Below are positions 29,968 through 41,461 of a stretch of 64,000 bases of DNA, piece by piece; the first letter of the stretch is position 1, and each line of letters starts with the position of its first letter. The notes beneath the pieces were generated by a model that was not told the origin of the DNA, ran no database searches, and saw nothing but the letters and a program-made list of their open reading frames with translations. Source of the stretch: Nitrospira sp. GTDB lineage: Bacteria; Nitrospirota; Nitrospiria; Nitrospirales; Nitrospiraceae. The position numbers were made by a program, and so were the translations under genes. Location: NCBI GenBank assembly GCA_015709715.1, contig CP054184.1, forward strand, positions 1,349,001-1,413,000, written 5' to 3'.

Positions 29968-30987
29968 TCATTGTATCAAACATTCGGCGATCTGAATCGC
30001 GTTCAGAGCGGCGCCCTTCCGAAGGTTGTCGCTGACCACCCACAGGTTCAACCCGTTGGTGATCGACTCGTCTTCCCGCACACGGCCGACGTATACCTCA
30101 TCTTTGCCTGACACGTCGAAGGGCATGGGGTACAACTTCTTCAGCGGATCATCGTACACGATGACACCTGGCATCTCCGCCAAGGCGGCTCGCGCATCGT
30201 TCGCTTTGAGCGGCCGCTCCAGTTCGACGTTAATCGCCTCGGAATGACATCGGAGCACCGGCACACGCACGGTGGTCGCCGTCACCCTCAAGGAGGGCAG
30301 GTCCAAGATTTTTCTGGTCTCGCGGACGATCTTGACCTCTTCAGAACAGTCGCCCCCCTCACCGAATGAGCCGATTTGAGGCAGCAGGTTGAAGGCGATC
30401 TGATAGGGATAGACCTGAACCTTGACGTCTTGAAAGGAGATCAGAGCCTTCGTCTGATCGATCAGTTCGTCCATGGCCGCCGCTCCGGTACCGGAGACGG
30501 ACTGAAAGGTCGTGACGACCACGCGCTTGAGTCCTGCCGCATCCGCCAACGGCTTGAGCGCCATGACCAGCGGAGTCGTCGTGCAGTTGGGAATCGCAAC
30601 AATCCCCCGTTTCATGGTACCTAACGCCGCCGCGTTCACCTCGGGCACCACCAAGGGCACATCGGGATCCATGCGGAAGACCCCGCTGTCGTCGATCACC
30701 GCAATGCCGGCCGCTCCCAGCCGAACTCCATACTCCCGGCTGATTGCATCGGTTGCAGAGATGAACGCGATGTCCACTCCGTCGAACGACGAAGACTCCG
30801 TCAATTCCTCAACCTTGTACTCCTTCTCTTGGCACGTCAGCACTTCCCCCGCCGAGCGCTTCGACGCGAAGAGTCGCAGTCCTTCGATGGGGAACTTGCG
30901 TTCTTCCAGGATCTCAAGGCTTTCTTTCCCCACTGCCCCGGTTGCGCCGAGCACGGCCACCGTATAGGCCTTTTTCTTCTTCAACAT
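29968..30987 (-). CDS. asd: Aspartate-semialdehyde dehydrogenase
   Basis: 339 residues. NADP-binding start YTVAVLGATGAVGKESLEIL, catalytic Cys in VAIPNCTTTPLVMALKPL, and RVPVLRCHSEAINVELERPL near the C-terminus with the substrate-binding Arg and the base His. It reduces aspartyl phosphate to the semialdehyde for lysine, threonine, methionine and diaminopimelate. It sits downstream of leuB and an NHL-repeat gene in the leftward amino-acid cluster. Confidence 0.96.
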   Translation of the reverse strand: MLKKKKAYTVAVLGATGAVGKESLEILEERKFPIEGLRLFASKRSAGEVLTCQEKEYKVEELTESSSFDGVDIAFISATDAISREYGVRLGAAGIAVIDDSGVFRMDPDVPLVVPEVNAAALGTMKRGIVAIPNCTTTPLVMALKPLADAAGLKRVVVTTFQSVSGTGAAAMDELIDQTKALISFQDVKVQVYPYQIAFNLLPQIGSFGEGGDCSEEVKIVRETRKILDLPSLRVTATTVRVPVLRCHSEAINVELERPLKANDARAALAEMPGVIVYDDPLKKLYPMPFDVSGKDEVYVGRVREDESITNGLNLWVVSDNLRKGAALNAIQIAECLIQ

Positions 30988-30997
30988 GATACCGTCC

Positions 30998-32209
30998 TCA
31001 CTCGGTTGGGCTCAGGACCCTGATGCGGTGATTGAAGGTGTCCGCAATATATACAGTCCCCCGCTCGTCCACCGCCACTCCGAATGGATAACTCAGACTG
31101 CCGGCGAGAGCATCCCCTCCATCACCACCGTACTGTGCGGCCCCGGCTCCAGTCAGACGAATGATGGTCTTAGTCCCAGAGTCCCACCGGCGGATCAAAT
31201 GGCTGTCGGAGTCCGTAATATACAAAGCGCCATCACGACCGGCGGCAATCCCCGCGGGTCTGGACAGGCTGGCAGAAATCGGCTCATCCGGTCCTTGATA
31301 TCGATAGATGCCGCCGTCGCCGGCCACGGTTGCAATCCGACCGGTCGAGGGATCGATGGATCGAATGCGGCTATTGAACGTATCAGCCACATACAACATG
31401 CCGTCCACGCCCACTGCCAACCCACTCGGCCCGGCCAGACTGGCCTGCACCGCCGCAATCTCGTCTCCATTGTATCCAGCCACGCCGTCGCCGGCGATGG
31501 TGCTGATGAAACCGGTCGCCAACTCCACCTTGCGCACTCGATTGTTGCTCTGATCGGCAATGTACAGGGCTCCGCCTTCCACCGCGACGCCGGTCGGCTC
31601 ATTGAGGGCCGCCTGCACCGCCAGCCCACCGTCCCCCGAAAAGCGAGCCTGTCCGGTACCCGCCACTGTAGCAATGAGACCGCTTGACGCATCAACCTTC
31701 CGGACGCGATGGTGCATCGTGTCCGCGATGTATAGATTCCCCACCTCATCCACGGCGACCGCACTGGGAAAATTCAACTTTGCGCACACCGCCGGCCCAC
31801 CGTCGCCCAACTCTTGCTCGACGGCCAACCGTCCGCCGGTCACATATCGCACGGTCCCGCTGAGATCAGTCACCTGCGTATACGCCTTGGTGGAATCGCC
31901 TGAGGGTTCGGCAAACGGGTCGTCGTCTGCGGAGTCCACAAGCTCCTCAGCATGTAGGGACCGGGACACCAAGGCCTTCTCCGACGAAGCACGCCCTGCG
32001 ACCGTCGTGATGGTTCCCGTAATCCGATCGACTCGACGCACCAGGTGATTTTCGGAATCGGCGATGTAGAGGTTGCCGAAGCGATCGAGACAGAGGCCCT
32101 TGGGTTCATTCAACGAAGCCGAGCGGGCCGTCCCTCCGTCCCCGGCATACCCGGGTTCGCCGTTGCCGGCCACCGTCTCAATCGTCAGAGGGTGCACTGC
32201 ATGAGTCAT
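30998..32209 (-). CDS. NHL-repeat beta-propeller protein
   Basis: 403 residues without signal peptide. Six NHL units of the type PxGLAVDxxGNLYIADTxNHRVRKVD are visible (for example LYIADSENHLVRRVD, LYIADTMHHRVRKVD, LYVADTFNSRIRSID, VYIADTFNHRIRVL), separated by linkers ending in TVAGxG...GDGG; this makes a six-bladed propeller. An acidic insert of about 60 residues (ending near GTVRYVTGGRLAVEQEL) splits blades one and two. Such proteins are protein- or RNA-binding scaffolds. Its place between leuB and asd, with gaps of 6 and 10 bp, implies co-expression with amino-acid synthesis, but no role is known. Confidence 0.85.
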   Translation of the reverse strand: MTHAVHPLTIETVAGNGEPGYAGDGGTARSASLNEPKGLCLDRFGNLYIADSENHLVRRVDRITGTITTVAGRASSEKALVSRSLHAEELVDSADDDPFAEPSGDSTKAYTQVTDLSGTVRYVTGGRLAVEQELGDGGPAVCAKLNFPSAVAVDEVGNLYIADTMHHRVRKVDASSGLIATVAGTGQARFSGDGGLAVQAALNEPTGVAVEGGALYIADQSNNRVRKVELATGFISTIAGDGVAGYNGDEIAAVQASLAGPSGLAVGVDGMLYVADTFNSRIRSIDPSTGRIATVAGDGGIYRYQGPDEPISASLSRPAGIAAGRDGALYITDSDSHLIRRWDSGTKTIIRLTGAGAAQYGGDGGDALAGSLSYPFGVAVDERGTVYIADTFNHRIRVLSPTE

Positions 32210-32215
32210 GGCGGT

Positions 32216-33292
32216 CTAGGACTCGAGACTACGCACGATGGCATCACCCATCTCGGCAGTGCTCACTAACTTCATGCCGTCCGCATGGATGTCCTTCGTC
32301 CGAATTCCCTGATCCAAGGTCTTGACGATCGCCTGCTCGATGGCTTCGGCTTCTTTCTCCAACTGGAACGCATAGGACAGCATCATCGCCGCGGAGGCGA
32401 TGGTGGCGATCGGATTGGCGATATTTTTCCCGGCAATGTCCGGCGCGCTTCCGTGAATCGGCTCGAAGAGGCCGACCTTCGCCCCCAGACTGGCGGAGGG
32501 TAACATACCGATGGAGCCCGTGAGCATCGCCGCTTCGTCACTGAGGATGTCGCCGAAGATGTTATTACACAACAATACGTCGAACTGCTTCGGGTTACGG
32601 ACGAGCTGCATGGCACAGTTGTCGACATAAATGTGACTCAAGGCCACGTCAGTATAGTCTTTCTGCACCTCGGTCACGACTTTCCGCCAGAGTTCGGAGG
32701 ACTCGAGCACGTTGGCCTTGTCGACCGATGTCACTTTCTTCCGCCGCTTGCGCGCCGCTTCGAAGGCCACTACCGCGATCCGCCGGATCTCATCCGTCGT
32801 ATACACCTCGGTGTTGAACCCGCGCTCTCCGCCGTTCGGCAGTTTTTCGATTCCCTTGGGTTTGCCGAAGTAAATGCCGCCCGTCAATTCACGGATCACG
32901 AGCATGTCGATCCCCTCGATGACCTCGCGGCGCAACGTGGAGGCATCGGCCAGCATCGGATACAACTTGGCAGGCCGCAAGTTGGCATAGAGTCCCAGTT
33001 GCTCGCGGAGCCCCAGAAGGGCCCGTTCCGGACGCAGGCTGTATTCCAAGCCTTCCCATTTCGGTCCACCCACGGCGCCCAACAACACGGCGTCACTTTG
33101 CTTGGCCAACGACAAGGTGTCCTGCGGCAACGGAACACCGACCTTATCGATGGCATGGCCACCGACATCCCCGGAGGCAAATTCGAAGTGATGCCCGAAT
33201 CGTTCCGCCACGGCCTTCAATACCTTGACGGCTTCCGGCACAATCTCCCGGCCGACCCCGTCGCCCGCCAAGACTGCAATTCTCGCTTTCAC
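32216..33292 (-). CDS. leuB: 3-isopropylmalate dehydrogenase
   Basis: 358 residues. Start [20 protein letters not shown], substrate-binding [20 protein letters not shown] with its Arg residues, [14 protein letters not shown], and the NAD site [20 protein letters not shown]. It oxidises and decarboxylates 3-isopropylmalate, the third step of leucine synthesis. leuC and leuD are not in the window. It is 18 bp downstream of a cupin gene and belongs to the leucine T-box-headed segment. Confidence 0.97.
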
Positions 33293-33310: not shown

Positions 33311-33673
33311 CTAATCGACGATCGTCTCACAGTCCGGCGTCCAAGCCGGATCCACGAGACACAAGAATTCAATCGGGCCCGTGCCGGTGTTGACCAGTGA
33401 CTGGTTTGCCCCAGGCGGCACATAGACCACCGAGCCCGGCTCTACCGCGGTCTGCTCTCCATCGATCTTCATCACCCCACGGCCAGCAATGACGTAATAC
33501 ACCTCCGAAAACTCCAGCCGATGTCGGAGCGACTGCCGCCCAGGATCCAGACACCCGTGGGCCATGCTATAGCCCAGCTTGAGGGGCGCCTTGTTCGGAT
33601 GCAACAACTCCCGCAGCCGCGTATGGTCGCCAGCCAGGAATTCCGGACATTCTCGAAGATGGGTATGGAACAT
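33311..33673 (-). CDS. Cupin-domain protein
   Basis: 120 residues forming one cupin barrel. Motif 1 is LRHRLEFSEVYYVIAGRGVM with the His/Glu metal ligands, followed by PGSVVYVPPGANQSLVNTGT as motif 2. The C-terminal WTPDCETIVD is short. Between leuA and leuB, it may be a small metal-dependent enzyme or sensor serving the pathway, but no substrate can be inferred. Confidence 0.85.
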   Translation of the reverse strand: MFHTHLRECPEFLAGDHTRLRELLHPNKAPLKLGYSMAHGCLDPGRQSLRHRLEFSEVYYVIAGRGVMKIDGEQTAVEPGSVVYVPPGANQSLVNTGTGPIEFLCLVDPAWTPDCETIVD

Positions 33674-33720: not shown

Positions 33721-35268
33721 TCAAATCAAGCCGACCTTCTGCTCCCCTTCAGCCTGCTTCGCGGCCAAATAGGCCAACTTGTTCAGGGCATTGAGATAGG
33801 CCCGCGTAGCCGCCGTGATGATATCCGTGTCGGCGCCATGTCCGGACACCGTCCGCCCGTCTTCCTCCAGGCGCACGGAGACCTCTCCCTGTGCGTCGGT
33901 TCCGCCAGTGATGGCATTGACGCCAAACATCAGCAGCTTGCTCCTGGTTTGGGTCATGGCTGCAATCGTCCGATAGACGGCATCCACAGGACCGTCACCG
34001 GTCCCGCTTTGGGTCACCTGCTTGCCGTCGATCTCCAGTTCGACCGTGGCTTTAGGCACCATATTGGTGCCGCTTTCAACGTGGAACGACTTCAACAGCA
34101 CACGCTCCGACATCTTGGCCACTTCTTCCGAGACGATCACCTCCAGGTCTTCCTCATAGATCTCTTTCTTCTGATCTGCCAACCGCTTGAAACGCTCGAA
34201 GGCATGGTTCATCTCTTCTTCGGTCAGCTTATAGCCCAATTCTTCCAACCGCTGACGGAACGCATGGCGCCCCGACAACTTGCCCATGACCAACTTGTTC
34301 TGTTCGAGCCCGATCGATTCCGGACGCATGATCTCGTAGGTGGTTTTATCCTTGAGCAACCCGTCTTGGTGAATGCCCGACGTGTGGGCGAAGGCGTTCG
34401 CGCCGACGATAGCCTTGTTCGGCTGAATGACCATGCCGGTAATCTTACTGACGAGGCGGCTGGTCTTCGAAATCTCTTCGGTGACGACCCGCGTATCGGC
34501 GCCATACCAATCCTTGCGCGTCCGCAGCCCCATCACGATCTCTTCCAGCGACGTATTGCCCGCCCGTTCGCCGATGCCGTTGATCGTGCATTCCACTTGA
34601 CCGGCTCCGGCCATCACCGCCGCCAGGCTGTTGGCGACAGCAACTCCCAAGTCGTTATGGCAATGAACCGAGATGACCGCTTGGTGACTGTTCGACACGC
34701 GGTCCTTGATCCGTTTGATCAGCGCGCCGAATTCCTGCGGCACCGCATACCCCACGGTGTCGGGAATATTGACCGTCTCGGCCCCCGCAGCGATGACCGC
34801 CTCGATGACTTCACAGAGATACGTCGGATCCGATCGGCTGGCGTCCATGGGTGAGAACTCCACGTCCTCGACATAACTCCGAGCCAACTCCACCATTTCC
34901 ACCGCCCGTTTCTTGGCCTCCTCACGGGTCATGCGAAACTGGTGTTTGAGATGGATATCCGACGTAGACAGGAAGGTGTGGATACGCACTTTCGGCGCCC
35001 CCTTCAGCGCCTCGTAGGCCCGGGTAATGTCTTCCGGCCTGGCTCGCGCCAGGCTACAGACCACCGGACCTTCCACTTCCTGGGCAATCCGGCGTACCGC
35101 CTCGAAATCTCCGGGTGAACTGTACGCGAATCCCGCCTCGATGATATCCACGCCGAGGCGTGCCAGTTGCTTGGCGATCATGAGTTTCTCCTCGACGTTC
35201 ATACTCGCCCCCGGCGATTGTTCCCCGTCCCGCAACGTCGTATCGAATATTCTGATCATCCTGGTCAT
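33721..35268 (-). CDS. leuA: 2-isopropylmalate synthase
   Basis: 515 residues. The DRE-TIM barrel starts with [20 protein letters not shown]; metal-binding [20 protein letters not shown] follows, and a C-terminal regulatory domain (about 390-515) normally gives leucine feedback inhibition. It condenses acetyl-CoA with 2-ketoisovalerate, the entry to leucine synthesis. A strong Shine-Dalgarno (AGGAGGTGAGCC) precedes the ATG. The leader carries a T-box riboswitch with a CUC leucine specifier, so expression should respond to uncharged tRNA-Leu as well as to allostery. Confidence 0.97.
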
Positions 35269-35351: not shown

Positions 35352-35385
35352 AAAAAAGCCTCCGCCCCGAGACAGGGACGAAGGC
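35352..35385 (-). terminator. Regulated terminator of the leuA T-box
   Basis: GCCTTCGTCCC pairs with GGGGCGGAGGC (11 bp, two G-T wobbles) and is followed by TTTTTTATT, a textbook rho-independent terminator. It begins 12 nt after the T-box sequence, the normal distance for mutually exclusive folding. Confidence 0.9.
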
Positions 35386-35620
35386 CTTTCGGAACTTCGT
35401 GGTACCACCCTGATTCAGCAGTCGATGAAAGCGCGCTTCCATCCGACCGCCCTTGATTCTGTCCGTCACGTGGACGACTCGGAACCCACTACAACCTCTG
35501 CAGGTTTCGCAGGTCCAGCTCGGAGGCGAGTTCAGCGAATGACCGGCTGGTTCACACCACCCACCAGCTCTCTCGATTCGGTCACGATCGCCTACTACTC
35601 CTCGTCAGTGCTGTTGTCAC
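35352..35620 (-). promoter_or_regulatory. Leucine T-box riboswitch upstream of leuA
   Basis: Reading the minus strand: stem I begins near the pssA stop with GAGGAGTAGTAGGCGA, has the AG-bulge/distal-loop sequence AGAGAGCTGGTGGGTGG, and returns through GAACTCGCC, where CTC (35530-35528) after GAA is the specifier triplet, a leucine codon; GGCGA pairs with TCGCC around it. The T-box AGGGTGGTACCACG lies at 35411-35398; its TGGT can pair with the ACCA end of tRNA-Leu. A strong terminator follows at 35385-35352. Low leucine charging would favour the antiterminator and leuA transcription. No separate promoter is evident between pssA and stem I. Confidence 0.93.
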
Positions 35621-36417
35621 TCTTTGGAATCCAACACGGGTACATCGGGCTTGGCCCCCTGCTTGCTGGCCCCCTTCATCACCACCGCCCATAAACGCGC
35701 GGCTGGCCCAGACAGGGCGTACCCCGCAAAGATGACGAACACCATCACCTGCGGCCAGGCGGCGATCATCATCAACGCCAGGATGCCCCACACCAGGTAG
35801 GTGAAGTGGTCGCCGCGCCGGAACTTCAGGTCTTTGAAGCTGCGGTACTTGATCGTGCTCACCATAAGGAAGGCCAGCGCGAACGTGATCACCAGAATCA
35901 GGAGCGGCTTGACCTCTGCTCCCATTTGCGTGATGTGGAGATCGAATATGACCAACGAGGCGATCACCCCTGCCGCCGCAGGGATGGCGAGACCAGTAAA
36001 ATATTTACTGTCGGCCGTGCTCACGGTGGCGTTGAATCGGGCCAATCGTACAGCCCCCATGGCGACGTAAGCGAACATCACCGCGACGCCGAACATCCCC
36101 TGCCCGCTGAGCGCATAGGAATAGATCAACACCCCCGGTGCGACTCCAAACGACACCACATCCGACAGCGAATCGTACTCGATGCCGAACTGGCCCGTGC
36201 TGTTGGTCAATCGGGCCAATTTGCCGTCCAGCATGTCGAAGACCATGCCGCCCAAAATCGCAATGGCGGCGGCCAAATGCTGGCCGTTGAACACCGACAG
36301 GATCGCGAACACGCCGCAAAACAGGTTGCCCGTCGTGCATAAATTGGGGATAAGGTACATCGCCTGACGCCGTCGGTTTCCCTTGGCAAACGAGGCTCGC
36401 ACGCCCGATGCTTTCAT
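35617..36417 (-). CDS. pssA: CDP-diacylglycerol-serine O-phosphatidyltransferase
   Basis: 266 residues with about eight membrane helices. The CDP-alcohol phosphatase motif DxxDGxxARx8GxxxDxxxD is complete in DMLDGKLARLTNSTGQFGIE followed by YDSLSD. It makes phosphatidylserine from CDP-diacylglycerol. Its ATG overlaps the psd stop by four bases, so the two phosphatidylethanolamine enzymes are coupled. The gene ends exactly where the leuA T-box begins. Confidence 0.95.
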   Translation of the reverse strand: MKASGVRASFAKGNRRRQAMYLIPNLCTTGNLFCGVFAILSVFNGQHLAAAIAILGGMVFDMLDGKLARLTNSTGQFGIEYDSLSDVVSFGVAPGVLIYSYALSGQGMFGVAVMFAYVAMGAVRLARFNATVSTADSKYFTGLAIPAAAGVIASLVIFDLHITQMGAEVKPLLILVITFALAFLMVSTIKYRSFKDLKFRRGDHFTYLVWGILALMMIAAWPQVMVFVIFAGYALSGPAARLWAVVMKGASKQGAKPDVPVLDSKE

Positions 36418-37064
36418 CGAAGTTCTCCCAGAATGGATTCTCCGCCCTTAACCCGATCCCCCACTGCGACTCGGATGCTCGACCCCAGCGGCAAAAACGT
36501 ATCCATCCTCGACCCAAACCGGATCAACCCGTAGCGCTCACCCCGCTCCACACGATCACCCTCTCCCACCCAACACACGATGCGACGGGCGATCAACCCG
36601 GCAACCTGCACACACAAGACCTTGGCTCCGGATTCCGCCTTCAACATGACGGCATTCTGTTCATTGTGCAAAGTCGCCTCGGGCTTACTCGCCACGAGAA
36701 ACTGCCCGGGCTGGTAGCTGACGCCTTCCACAATGCCCGCACAGGGCATCCGGTTCACATGGACGTCGAACACATTCAGAAACACCGTAACCCGAATGCT
36801 CTTTTCCTTCAAGTAGCGAGGCTCAAACTCCTCCTCGATTGCGATCACCTTGCCGTCTCCAGGCGACACCACCATGTTGGGCTGCTGCGGAATCGTCCGG
36901 CTGGGATTCCGAAAAAACCACGCCGTAAACAGCGTGAACCCACCGGCCACCAACGCCGGGATGGGCCAGCCGACTCCTCCGAAAAGCAACGCCAAACCGC
37001 CCAGTCCTCCGACAAACGGCCAGCCTTCCTTAACGATCGGAATCCCTACCGCATGATCAGCCAT
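36414..37064 (-). CDS. psd: Phosphatidylserine decarboxylase proenzyme
   Basis: 216 residues from ATG 37064, five bases after GGAG. This is the short, single-anchor form: hydrophobic LALLFGGVGWPIPALVAGGF near the start, NVFDVHVNRMPCAGIVEGV with the catalytic His, and LPLGSSIRVAVGDRV near the end, where self-cleavage at GSS creates the pyruvoyl group. It decarboxylates phosphatidylserine to phosphatidylethanolamine and overlaps pssA. Confidence 0.95.
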   Translation of the reverse strand: MADHAVGIPIVKEGWPFVGGLGGLALLFGGVGWPIPALVAGGFTLFTAWFFRNPSRTIPQQPNMVVSPGDGKVIAIEEEFEPRYLKEKSIRVTVFLNVFDVHVNRMPCAGIVEGVSYQPGQFLVASKPEATLHNEQNAVMLKAESGAKVLCVQVAGLIARRIVCWVGEGDRVERGERYGLIRFGSRMDTFLPLGSSIRVAVGDRVKGGESILGELR

Positions 37065-37115
37065 ACCACTCCGCGCCCACGACAAACCCTCTATATGCGG
37101 TGTTGCCCTTGGGTG

Positions 37116-38132
<1,017 letters not shown>

Positions 38133-38196: not shown

Positions 38197-38715
38197 CTAC
38201 TCGCGAGCGACTTTTTTCGGTTGGCTGGCCGCCGGCCTGATGGCCTCGCGCGCAATCGCCACACGACCCGTCCGAATCAATTCCTTGATGCCGAGCGGTT
38301 GCAGCAAATTGATGATGGCCTCGATTTTCTTCGGGTCCCCCGTCACCTCGATGGTGTAGGTCGACGGCGTCGAGTCGATCACGTTGGCCCGGAAAATGTC
38401 GGCGATCCTGAGCGCCTCCGCCCGGTCTTCCGACTTGGTATGAACCTTGATCAAGGCCGTCTCCCGAGAGACGAACTCACTTTCATTGAGGTCCACGACC
38501 TTGATGACATCGATCAACTTGTTCAGCTGCTTGACGATCTGTTCCACAATGCGATCGTCACCGGACGTCACGATCGTCATCTGGGACATCGAGGGATCGA
38601 GAGTCGGCGCCACGGAAAGGCTTTCGATGTTGAACCCGCGCCCGCTGAACAATCCCGCCACGCGGGACAATACCCCGAATTTATTCTCGACTGTGACTGA
38701 AATAATGTGTTCCAT
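38197..38715 (-). CDS. ilvH: Acetolactate synthase small (regulatory) subunit
   Basis: 172 residues from ATG 38715. An N-terminal ACT domain (HIISVTVENKFGVLSRVAGL, FSGRGFNIESLSVAPT) binds valine for feedback inhibition, and the C-terminal domain has FRANVIDSTPSTYTIEVTGD. It activates and regulates the large subunit encoded 64 bp upstream. A Lys-rich tail of about 12 residues ends the protein. Confidence 0.95.
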   Translation of the reverse strand: MEHIISVTVENKFGVLSRVAGLFSGRGFNIESLSVAPTLDPSMSQMTIVTSGDDRIVEQIVKQLNKLIDVIKVVDLNESEFVSRETALIKVHTKSEDRAEALRIADIFRANVIDSTPSTYTIEVTGDPKKIEAIINLLQPLGIKELIRTGRVAIAREAIRPAASQPKKVARE

Positions 38716-38779
38716 CGACCTCGACGAACTGGGTCCTCTCAGCACGTCCAATGCACTGCAGAGGCTCAGCCCTCTCTCC

Positions 38780-40558
38780 CTATGCTGTCAGAATCGTGTC
38801 CTTGTCTTCATTGCTGCCGGTGCCGACCGCCCCGGCCTGCTTCTTCTTGAGTTCCGGCGGATCTTCCAGGATCATTTCGTGATTGCACCCACCGGCCGGA
38901 ATCATCGGATAACAATTCTCGTAGGGATAGGTCGGCACATCCACGACGACCGGCTTGTCGCTCTCGATCGCCGCCTTGAGGACACCATCCAAGTCGTTCA
39001 GGGAATTGGCGCGTAACCCCACCGCGCCATAGGCCTCGGCCAGCTTCACAAAGTCCGGCGTCGTATCGAGATAACTGGAGGCGTACCGACCTTCATAGAA
39101 CAGGTCCTGCCACTGCCGAACCATGCCGTGGAAACGGTTGTTCAGGATAACGATTTTGACCGGCAGCTTCGAGACCATGGCCGTCGCCATTTCCTGCATG
39201 TTCATTTGCACGCTCCCGTCGCCGGCCACGCACAACACCAACCGGTTCCGAAAGGCCGCCTGGGCTCCCATCGCGGCGGGAAACCCGAACCCCATCGTGC
39301 CGAGACCACCGGACGTGAGCCAGCGATTCGGCTTCGCCAGCTTGAAGTACTGGGCCGTCCACATCTGATGTTGCCCCACATCCGTCGACACGATCGGATC
39401 CCGATCCTTCGTCAGCTCGTACAACCGCTTGATCACATGTTGCGGCTTGATGGCCCCCTCCGGCTCTTGGTGATAGCTGAGGGGGTGCGCCTGCTGCCAT
39501 TCTCGGATTTGGTCCCACCAGGGTTTCCGAAGCCCGCTCTGATCACCGTTCACGGTTGCTTTCAAAATCTGATTCAAGTCCCGCAATACGGCCTTACAGT
39601 CACCCACGATCGGAATATCGACGTGGATATTCTTGCGGATCGACGTCGGGTCGATATCGATATGGATGACCTTGGCGTGTGGACAGAATTCAGAGACCTT
39701 GCCGGTCACGCGATCATCGAATCGCGCCCCCACGGCGATCACGAGGTCGGAATAGTGCATCGCCATGTTGGCGCTGTAGGTTCCGTGCATGCCCAACATG
39801 CCCAGCGACAGCGGATGTTCGCCGGGGAATGCGCCTAAGCCCATCAGCGTCATGTCGACGGGGATCTGCGTCATCTCCGCCAGTTCAAGCAATTCCTTGG
39901 AGGCGCCTGAAAACACCACTCCTCCCCCCACGTAGAGGATCGGCTTCTTCGCCTTGACAATGGCTTCCGCAGCTTGCTTGATCTGCCATTTATTACCCTC
40001 ATACGTCGGATTGTATCCACGGATGGACACGGAGTTGGGATAGGTAAACTCCGTCTTGGCCATGGACACATCCTTGGGAATATCCACCAAGACCGGCCCA
40101 GGACGGCCGGTGGTGGCGATATAGAAGGCTTCCTTGATCGTGGTGGCAAGATCGTTCACGTCCTTCACGAGGAAGTTGTACTTCGTACAGGGCCGGCTGA
40201 GGCCGATGTTGTCCGCCTCCTGGAACGCATCGTTGCCGATCAGACTGGTCGACACCTGTCCGCTGAAGCAGACCAGAGGAACGGAGTCCATATAGGCATC
40301 GGCCAGCGCGGTGATCACGTTCGTCATGCCTGGTCCCGAGGTCACCAAACAGACCCCGGCTTTCCCGGTTGCCTTGGCATAGCCCTCGGCCATGTGACCG
40401 GCACCCTGCTCATGCCTGGTCAGAATAACTTCGATCTCATTCTGCTGATGGAGCATGTCAAAGATCTTCAGCACGACGCCGCCCGGCAAGGCGAAGATCG
40501 TCTTCACACCCTCCCGCTTCAGGCATTCGATAAAGATTTCCGACCCTGTCAACTTCAT
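38780..40558 (-). CDS. ilvB: Acetolactate synthase large subunit
   Basis: 592 residues from ATG 40558, preceded by GGAGGGTGAT. Thiamine-diphosphate enzyme domains are in order: N-terminal PYR (the catalytic Glu in LTRHEQGAGHMAEGYAKATG), central FAD-binding domain, and C-terminal PP domain with GDGSVQMNMQEMATAMVSKL and ILNN as Mg-TPP motif. It forms acetolactate or acetohydroxybutyrate. First gene of the long leftward cluster, behind its own candidate promoter. Confidence 0.96.
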   Translation of the reverse strand: MKLTGSEIFIECLKREGVKTIFALPGGVVLKIFDMLHQQNEIEVILTRHEQGAGHMAEGYAKATGKAGVCLVTSGPGMTNVITALADAYMDSVPLVCFSGQVSTSLIGNDAFQEADNIGLSRPCTKYNFLVKDVNDLATTIKEAFYIATTGRPGPVLVDIPKDVSMAKTEFTYPNSVSIRGYNPTYEGNKWQIKQAAEAIVKAKKPILYVGGGVVFSGASKELLELAEMTQIPVDMTLMGLGAFPGEHPLSLGMLGMHGTYSANMAMHYSDLVIAVGARFDDRVTGKVSEFCPHAKVIHIDIDPTSIRKNIHVDIPIVGDCKAVLRDLNQILKATVNGDQSGLRKPWWDQIREWQQAHPLSYHQEPEGAIKPQHVIKRLYELTKDRDPIVSTDVGQHQMWTAQYFKLAKPNRWLTSGGLGTMGFGFPAAMGAQAAFRNRLVLCVAGDGSVQMNMQEMATAMVSKLPVKIVILNNRFHGMVRQWQDLFYEGRYASSYLDTTPDFVKLAEAYGAVGLRANSLNDLDGVLKAAIESDKPVVVDVPTYPYENCYPMIPAGGCNHEMILEDPPELKKKQAGAVGTGSNEDKDTILTA

Positions 40559-40688
40559 ATCACCCTCCCCTCCACCTCGGTTGGCGAAGGACATGATGCC
40601 TCACCGGAGAATAATCTTCTCTTCCTGCCTCGTCTCCGAGACACAGGTTGATACGATCTTACTGAAAAAACAATGGGTAAGATGGCGG

Positions 40689-40718
40689 ATGGTATCACCA
40701 GATCTCAAGAGAGGTCAA
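40689..40718 (-). promoter_or_regulatory. Promoter candidate for the ilv cluster
   Basis: TTGACC (40718-40713), an 18-nt spacer and TACCAT (40694-40689) on the minus strand, leaving a leader of about 125 nt before ilvB. No T-box or leader-peptide attenuator was recognised in it. Confidence 0.4.
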
Positions 40719-40785: not shown

Positions 40786-41091
40786 ATGGCTCAGACACGC
40801 GTCACGATCCTCTCCCGCCGAGAATGCCATCTCTGCCGAGTAGCACACCGGATCGCCCGACAACTGCAGGAGGACCTCTCCTTCGACCTGAAGGAGGTGA
40901 ATGTGGACGATGATCCGCAGTTAGTCTCGCGCTATGGGAACCGAGTGCCGGTACTGCTCATCGATGACCGGGAGGCCCTTGCGGGAAGGTTGACGGGCGG
41001 CGAGTTGCGCGCCGCCATCAAAAGGGCGCGTTGGAGGAACCCTATAAGCCGGATTCTGTCCCGTGTGAAACTTGCGCTCGCACGGGGGTGA
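40786..41091 (+). CDS. Glutaredoxin-like (DUF836) thiol protein
   Basis: 101 residues. A thioredoxin-fold start RVTILSRRECHLCRVAHRIA carries CxxC (CHLC), followed by the cis-Pro region NRVPVLLIDDREALAGRLTG. This fits the small glutaredoxin-2-like/DUF836 group. The core ends near residue 80; the last 22 codons, rich in Arg, are encoded by DNA antisense to the 3' end of the RNase P RNA gene. It diverges from ilvB. Physiological partner unknown. Confidence 0.85.
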   Translation: MAQTRVTILSRRECHLCRVAHRIARQLQEDLSFDLKEVNVDDDPQLVSRYGNRVPVLLIDDREALAGRLTGGELRAAIKRARWRNPISRILSRVKLALARG

Positions 41092-41461
41092 TCATTTCTC
41101 TGGGACTCGAGTTGCCCCGAGCCTCAAGCAACCTACCCGGGAACCTCGGCCGGGCCGGCCTTTCTGCTGAGCCCTGACGGGCGCCGCAGGCGTCCCCCTA
41201 TTTGGTCTTGCTCCGGACGACGCTTACCGTGCCGTTGATGTCGCCATCACCGCGGTAGGCTCTTACCCCACCGTTTCACCCTTACCTGAGCCGGCAGGAG
41301 GACCAAGGTCGCTCGCGCCGGCCATCGGCGGTCTGTTCTCTGTGGTGCTGGTGTCGGATCACTCCGCCTGGACGTTATCCAGCGTCCTTGCCCTTGGAGT
41401 CCGGACTTTCCTCCCATCGAGCAGACTCGACGAGCGACCACCCGTGCTCCCCCAGCGCGCC
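41025..41461 (-). ncRNA. rnpB: RNase P RNA (bacterial class A)
   Basis: The minus strand carries the diagnostic conserved blocks: GATGGGAGGAAAGTCCGGAC near the 5' end, GGTAAGGGTGAAACGGTGGG and GTAAGAGCCTACCGCGG in the middle, and GACAGAATCCGGCTTATAGG near the 3' end. The boundaries were set from the P1 helix: GGCGCGCTGGGGGA at the 5' end pairs with TCCTCCAACGCGCC at the 3' end (13 of 14 positions). Length about 437 nt. It is the catalytic RNA that matures tRNA 5' ends. The 3' 67 nt overlap the convergent glutaredoxin-like CDS. Confidence 0.95.

Follow-up and report, generated by a model that had tools for sequence, protein, structure and literature searches.

A leucine T-box leader at the pssA–leuA junction of Nitrospira as a probable operon-internal gate

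In the Nitrospira sp. DNA analyzed here (the window, a stretch of 64,000 nucleotides), a leader with the features of a T-box riboswitch lies between pssA and leuA, within a series of genes on one strand, which raises the question of what this element recognizes and whether it serves a promoter of its own or a transcript arriving from the genes upstream. The phylum adds to the question. Surveys published in 2008 and 2013 described T-boxes in Firmicutes, Actinobacteria, Chloroflexi, Deinococcus-Thermus, and Geobacter only (PMC2494555, PMC3766115), and Nitrospirota are named neither in these surveys nor in the text of the T-box database paper (PMC7778990). The view taken in the preliminary description, that T-boxes are sparse outside Firmicutes and Actinobacteria, fits this literature, and, judged from the surveys and the text of the database paper, a leucine T-box is probably new for the phylum Nitrospirota.

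A covariance search with the Rfam T-box model, which had been set beforehand as a check, returned a full-length match to RF00230 (window 35617-35371 on the minus strand, model positions 1-219, E 2.3e-20) with a score of 98.1 bits against a gathering score of 93 bits. The element is a full-length class I T-box of the transcription-terminating type, a known class, and it is the only T-box found by a search of the whole 4.16-Mb genome. All of the hallmarks that had been listed for it, namely the AG bulge, the GAA-CUC sequence, the T-box core, and the terminator, can be read directly in the sequence. From 5' to 3' in the RNA, AGUAGU near the base of stem I is followed by AGAGAG (the AG bulge), the distal loop GGGUGGUG, GAA-CUC, a stem II region reading CGAAA...GUAG, the core, and the terminator, the stem I motifs AGAGAG, GGGUGGUG, and GAA-CUC being placed as such in the RF00230 alignment. 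The terminator ends in UUUUUU, with the U run extending to 35352. The stop codon of pssA (TGA) occupies 35619-35617, the RF00230 model begins on this codon, and pairing in stem I sets in about 6 nt past it, in agreement with the earlier placement of stem I at the pssA stop; the originally proposed span of 35352-35620 correctly takes in both the T-box and its terminator. The coordinates are collected in Table 1.

Table 1. Features of the pssA–leuA junction and the surrounding gene run, in window coordinates
Feature	Position	Strand	Basis or remark
Candidate operon promoter TTGACC-18-TACCAT, TG before -10, 5' of ilvB	40689..40718	-	9/12 consensus; weak
ilvB, acetolactate synthase large subunit, first gene of the upstream run	38780..40594	-	TIGR00118
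ilvH, acetolactate synthase small subunit	38197..38751	-	NF008864
ilvC	37116..38129	-	NF004017
psd	36414..37085	-	NF003678
pssA, directly upstream of the T-box, stop codon touching it	35617..36417	-	TIGR00473
Leucine T-box leader, class I, transcriptional	35371..35617	-	RF00230
Specifier codon CUC (Leu)	35528..35530	-	sequence and RF00230 alignment; directly 3' of GAA 35533-35531
T-box core AGGGUGGUACCACG, 5' antiterminator strand with tRNA-end-binding bulge	35398..35411	-	RF00230 match
Intrinsic terminator hairpin, 16 bp	35353..35390	-	arms 35390-35375 and 35368-35353
leuA, 2-isopropylmalate synthase, first controlled gene	33721..35268	-	NF002086, 805 bits
Cupin-domain protein, in the gated run	33311..33673	-	weak matches only
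leuB	32216..33292	-	TIGR00169
NHL-repeat protein	30998..32209	-	NHL/Scy-type models, below cut-off
asd, aspartate-semialdehyde dehydrogenase	29968..30987	-	NF011456, TIGR01296

The flanking genes were checked with NCBIfam models. Upstream of the T-box lie ilvB, ilvH, ilvC, psd, and pssA, downstream the run from leuA to asd, and all of them are on one strand. The three genes leuA, leuB, and asd that had been assigned to the downstream run were recovered, but the cupin gene, which is conserved 3' of leuA in several relatives, and the NHL-repeat gene had been missed. Beyond the upstream end of this series, an RNase P RNA gene (window 41029-41453, minus strand) overlaps at its 3' end with the last part of a small ORF that is glutaredoxin-like and lies on the opposite strand (40786-41091, plus strand). 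As for the spacer between terminator and leuA, many other Nitrospira (L004, L007, L010, L018, and others) carry there a conserved stretch (GCTGAAAC.GGCTTCCAAC.TTGTTCTCGGCTCGAAAAC) that is absent from the window; a dispersed repeat was considered for this spacer and rejected, the window version having one weak second match in its own genome.

Whether the T-box has its own promoter was addressed at the 3' end of pssA. No sigma-70-like site was found in the last 230 nt of pssA in the window, where the best candidate scores 6/12 and none of 300 synonymous shuffles scored lower; the scan uses the sigma-70 consensus, from which Nitrospira promoters may deviate. Synonymous constraint is likewise not raised at the pssA 3' end in 26 Nitrospira genomes (diversity 0.57 and 0.43 vs a mean of 0.49). 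Throughout the genus the specifier lies only about 83 nt past the pssA stop, which leaves no room between pssA and the T-box. In contrast, the specifier of Geobacterales loci with pssA is situated about 180-240 nt after that gene, and in three Geobacteraceae loci (L101, L102, L105) the T-box follows pssA by about 130-150 nt and the same scan detects a strong promoter, TTGACA-17/18-TATTAT, immediately 5' of stem I. Sites of 9-10/12 are also present just 5' of stem I in three Geobacterales loci without upstream pssA, and two loci of the Nitrospirota family f12 contain TTGACA-17-TAAGAT inside the end of pssA. Because one and the same scan detects promoters in Geobacteraceae and f12 and none in the window, read-through is the best supported reading, and the earlier proposal that the T-box gates read-through into leuA rather than serving a dedicated local promoter is supported on these grounds.

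The strongest competing explanation is a functional T-box served by a promoter concealed within the 3' part of pssA, which would make it an ordinary leader and no read-through gate. Such a layout exists in the phylum, given that the f12 T-box also abuts pssA, and some members of the genus have a site scoring 8/12 roughly 150 nt 5' of stem I. That site is, however, missing from the window and from about ten other loci of the genus, and neither the consensus scan nor the average synonymous diversity at the pssA end lends support to a hidden promoter in the window, which makes this explanation rather improbable. With the T-box as a read-through gate, a continuous transcript would have to extend from the upstream genes into leuA. 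The candidate promoter 5' of ilvB may be its origin, although sites of the 9/12 type are no commoner than chance in that region.

The T-box core and the terminator form two competing structures. When pairing was tested in an alignment of 25 3' domains drawn from Nitrospirota and Geobacterales, the antiterminator kept its pairs in 99.6% and the terminator in 96.4% of cells, three pairs of each structure had changed at both positions, and both pairings were far above slid controls. The two are mutually exclusive, since the 3' strand of the antiterminator is part of the terminator's 5' arm. Single-sequence folding is only modestly better than shuffles (z -2.5), the tRNA-bound state of the antiterminator being absent from such a fold. 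Across the genus, one T-box is present in 28 of 29 Nitrospira genomes; the assembly of the 29th (G024) has no leuA match, and a true T-box loss was therefore rejected for it. These data bear on the possibility that the T-box has decayed to a relic whose sole remaining role is that of an operon-internal terminator. The several T-box losses within Nitrospirota and a window score that barely exceeds the gathering cut-off would suit a relic, but the compensatory changes in both alternative structures, the invariance of specifier and core across the genus Nitrospira, and the retention of the sole T-box in every Nitrospira genome having a leuA match render it highly improbable.

Leucine specificity, as originally claimed, is supported by the sequence. 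A tRNA-Leu(GAG) gene is present in the genome, with A as the discriminator base and the CCA end encoded; the anticodon GAG fits the specifier CUC, and the ACCA end of this tRNA is complementary to UGGU of the core. Among 50 Nitrospirota T-boxes, in which the specifier calls depend on motif position, the specifier is CUC in 49 and CUG, also a leucine codon, in one (L036). The L036 T-box, which is the same as that of L067, comes from a small Nitrospiraceae genome encoding tRNA-Leu with anticodons GAG and CAG. The dependence of the calls on motif position is the one point in favor of recognition of another amino acid, the least probable of the alternatives, against which stand the exclusive occurrence of leucine codons at the specifier of these 50 loci, leuA as the target gene, and the assignment of the Geobacter leuA T-box to tRNA-Leu GAG (PMC2700814). 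The window T-box is thus taken to be specific for leucine, with tRNA-Leu(GAG) as its probable cognate.

Based on these features, the T-box very probably acts as a class I element for tRNA-Leu(GAG) that lies within a longer operon and controls leuA-(cupin)-leuB-(NHL)-asd, and a possible mechanism can be outlined. RNA polymerase that has passed ilvB-ilvH-ilvC-psd-pssA would transcribe the T-box. When tRNA-Leu is charged, the terminator (35390-35352) would form and transcription would end after pssA. When uncharged tRNA-Leu accumulates, its anticodon GAG may pair with CUC and its ACCA end with UGGU in the antiterminator bulge; the tRNA-bound antiterminator would then break the terminator, and polymerase could continue into leuA. 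With the leuA run gated by tRNA in this way, the leucine-specific steps would therefore be adjusted independently of the shared upstream genes of branched-chain and phospholipid synthesis.

The published counterpart of the window T-box is the leuA T-box of Geobacter and Pelobacter (Wels 2008, PMC2494555; Aklujkar 2009, PMC2700814), which is of the same class and has the same GAA-CUC. Each of four Geobacteraceae tested has one T-box per genome, as in Nitrospira, and the pssA/leuA junction is common to three of them. The ilv-leu T-box of Bacillus subtilis likewise responds to tRNA-Leu and belongs to the branched-chain pathway (PMC5794164); it precedes the ilv-leu operon, whereas the window T-box lies in mid-operon and would gate the leu part only.

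In the Nitrospirota sample, 59 of 198 genomes have a T-box, never more than one each. At 20 mapped loci from six families, the T-box is located 5' of leuA and 3' of pssA in every case in which the contig extends as far as the gene concerned. At one locus (L055:7600-8770), a tandem array of three short, similar ORFs of coiled-coil-like character separates pssA from the T-box, and another ORF separates the T-box from leuA. Outside the phylum, a whole-genome search of 23 named genomes found the four Geobacteraceae T-boxes and 12 in a Pelotomaculum, and no T-box in the other 18. Among 80 named LeuA loci of many phyla, most of which have ilv genes and leuA in the same order and many of which have pssA, the core pattern adjoins leuA in Nitrospira and Geobacteraceae only; L089, a Nitrospira locus, has the specifier, and the strict core pattern is not matched there. 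One genome of a Methylomirabilota sample has a T-box-like leader of 65 bits, under the cut-off (L183:1501-1770, minus strand), 5' of an ORF resembling a homocysteine-biosynthesis protein, and its specifier region GAACAUGG possibly contains AUG (Met).

In the LeuA tree, the T-box-bearing Nitrospirota form one clade (SH-aLRT 97) that includes one T-box-free member, and Geobacteraceae form a separate clade (99) that is not resolved as sister to it. Because the LeuA proteins of the T-box carriers form one clade, inheritance within Nitrospirota is indicated and, within the phylum, a recent transfer into Nitrospira was rejected. Judged by this phylogeny, the leucine T-box is old and has been passed down within a deep set of Nitrospirota. 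At a locus of family f8 (L192), a hairpin GGCCTTCGTC...GATGAAGGCC without a U run lies between pssA and leuA, just 5' of leuA; it may be what is left of the terminator of a lost T-box.

A different arrangement is found in family f2, which belongs to the same order. The phylum sample contains no T-box in f2, and no Rfam match at E<=1, including Leu_leader, was obtained in the leuA loci L186-L199. The operon is the same as in the T-box carriers, and f2 is sister in the LeuA tree to the T-box-bearing family f1. As f2 is nested among T-box carriers, T-box loss is the simplest reading. In the genera g10, g11, g13, g12, and g100, a terminator (GCCTTC...GAAGGC or similar) with a T run lies between pssA and leuA; genus g14 has a bare gap of about 60 nt. 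Short leucine-rich ORFs precede the terminator in g10 (L189, L190, L207, L208, L214, L216, L219, L223, L225, L229, L232), g11 (L187, L224, L226), and g13 (L186, L204, L205, L210, L222); over 22 ORFs, with starts chosen by inspection in related sequences, leucine makes up 21%, and most have leucine runs. Three g10 loci (L214, L216, L219) have lost the exact run. In g10 and g11, the ORF has 31 codons and starts a few nt past pssA (e.g., MDQWQGKGRGTLLLGDAVLTLADLLKTAVSP; MGKWQRTGRATLLLCDEHLTLLGFLGPSVLL). The pN/pS ratio of the g10 ORF is 0.47 in frame vs 0.93 and 1.09 in the other frames, a modest difference among 11 closely related sequences, with no significance test.

Pairing with the terminator is possible downstream of these ORFs. 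In g10, ACCCCGA 3' of the ORF stop could pair with UCGGGGU in the loop and 3' arm of the terminator, and in g11, too, a strand adjoining the ORF stop could pair with this part of the terminator. In g13, where the ORFs end in ...CLFLLGKV*, ...FFCLLLAKD*, or ...RLLEKE*, GATCGGG located 9-10 nt past the stop could pair with CCCGATC in the terminator. The g13 spacing GGG-7 nt-GUGAA...UUCGU-CCC repeats that of the T-box antiterminator, with UGCCUGG in the bulge instead of UGGUACC, so that a match to the tRNA end is no longer possible. Of the 22 post-stop segments, 18 outperform 95% of shuffles in pairing with the terminator, these being related sequences with few independent cases; those of L187, L191, L226, and L231 are not within the best 5%. 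With modest support, all of it from sequence, it is considered fairly likely that in f2 the T-box was exchanged in place for leader-peptide attenuation at the pssA/leuA junction, g13 apparently re-using a T-box-like antiterminator and terminator. An inherited T-box may have lost its tRNA-reading half, and a leucine-rich leader peptide could have taken over in several genera; a ribosome at the ORF stop would force termination, and one stalled on leucine codons would allow read-through. A precedent is known from Staphylococcus aureus, where ilv-leu has a leucine-rich attenuator peptide at a place that a T-box occupies in a relative, and where this leader bears a loose resemblance to a T-box lacking stem I (PMC5794164). 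This case, from another phylum and another gene, bears on f2 and not on the window.

The leucine T-box is an inherited element in Nitrospirota and would stand in the window as an operon-internal gate with no visible promoter. With the sister family f2, which has the same operon and junction, the pssA–leuA junctions may be read as a natural series consisting of a T-box, a candidate leader peptide, a terminator remnant, and nothing, in which the replacement of one sensor by another is directly testable.
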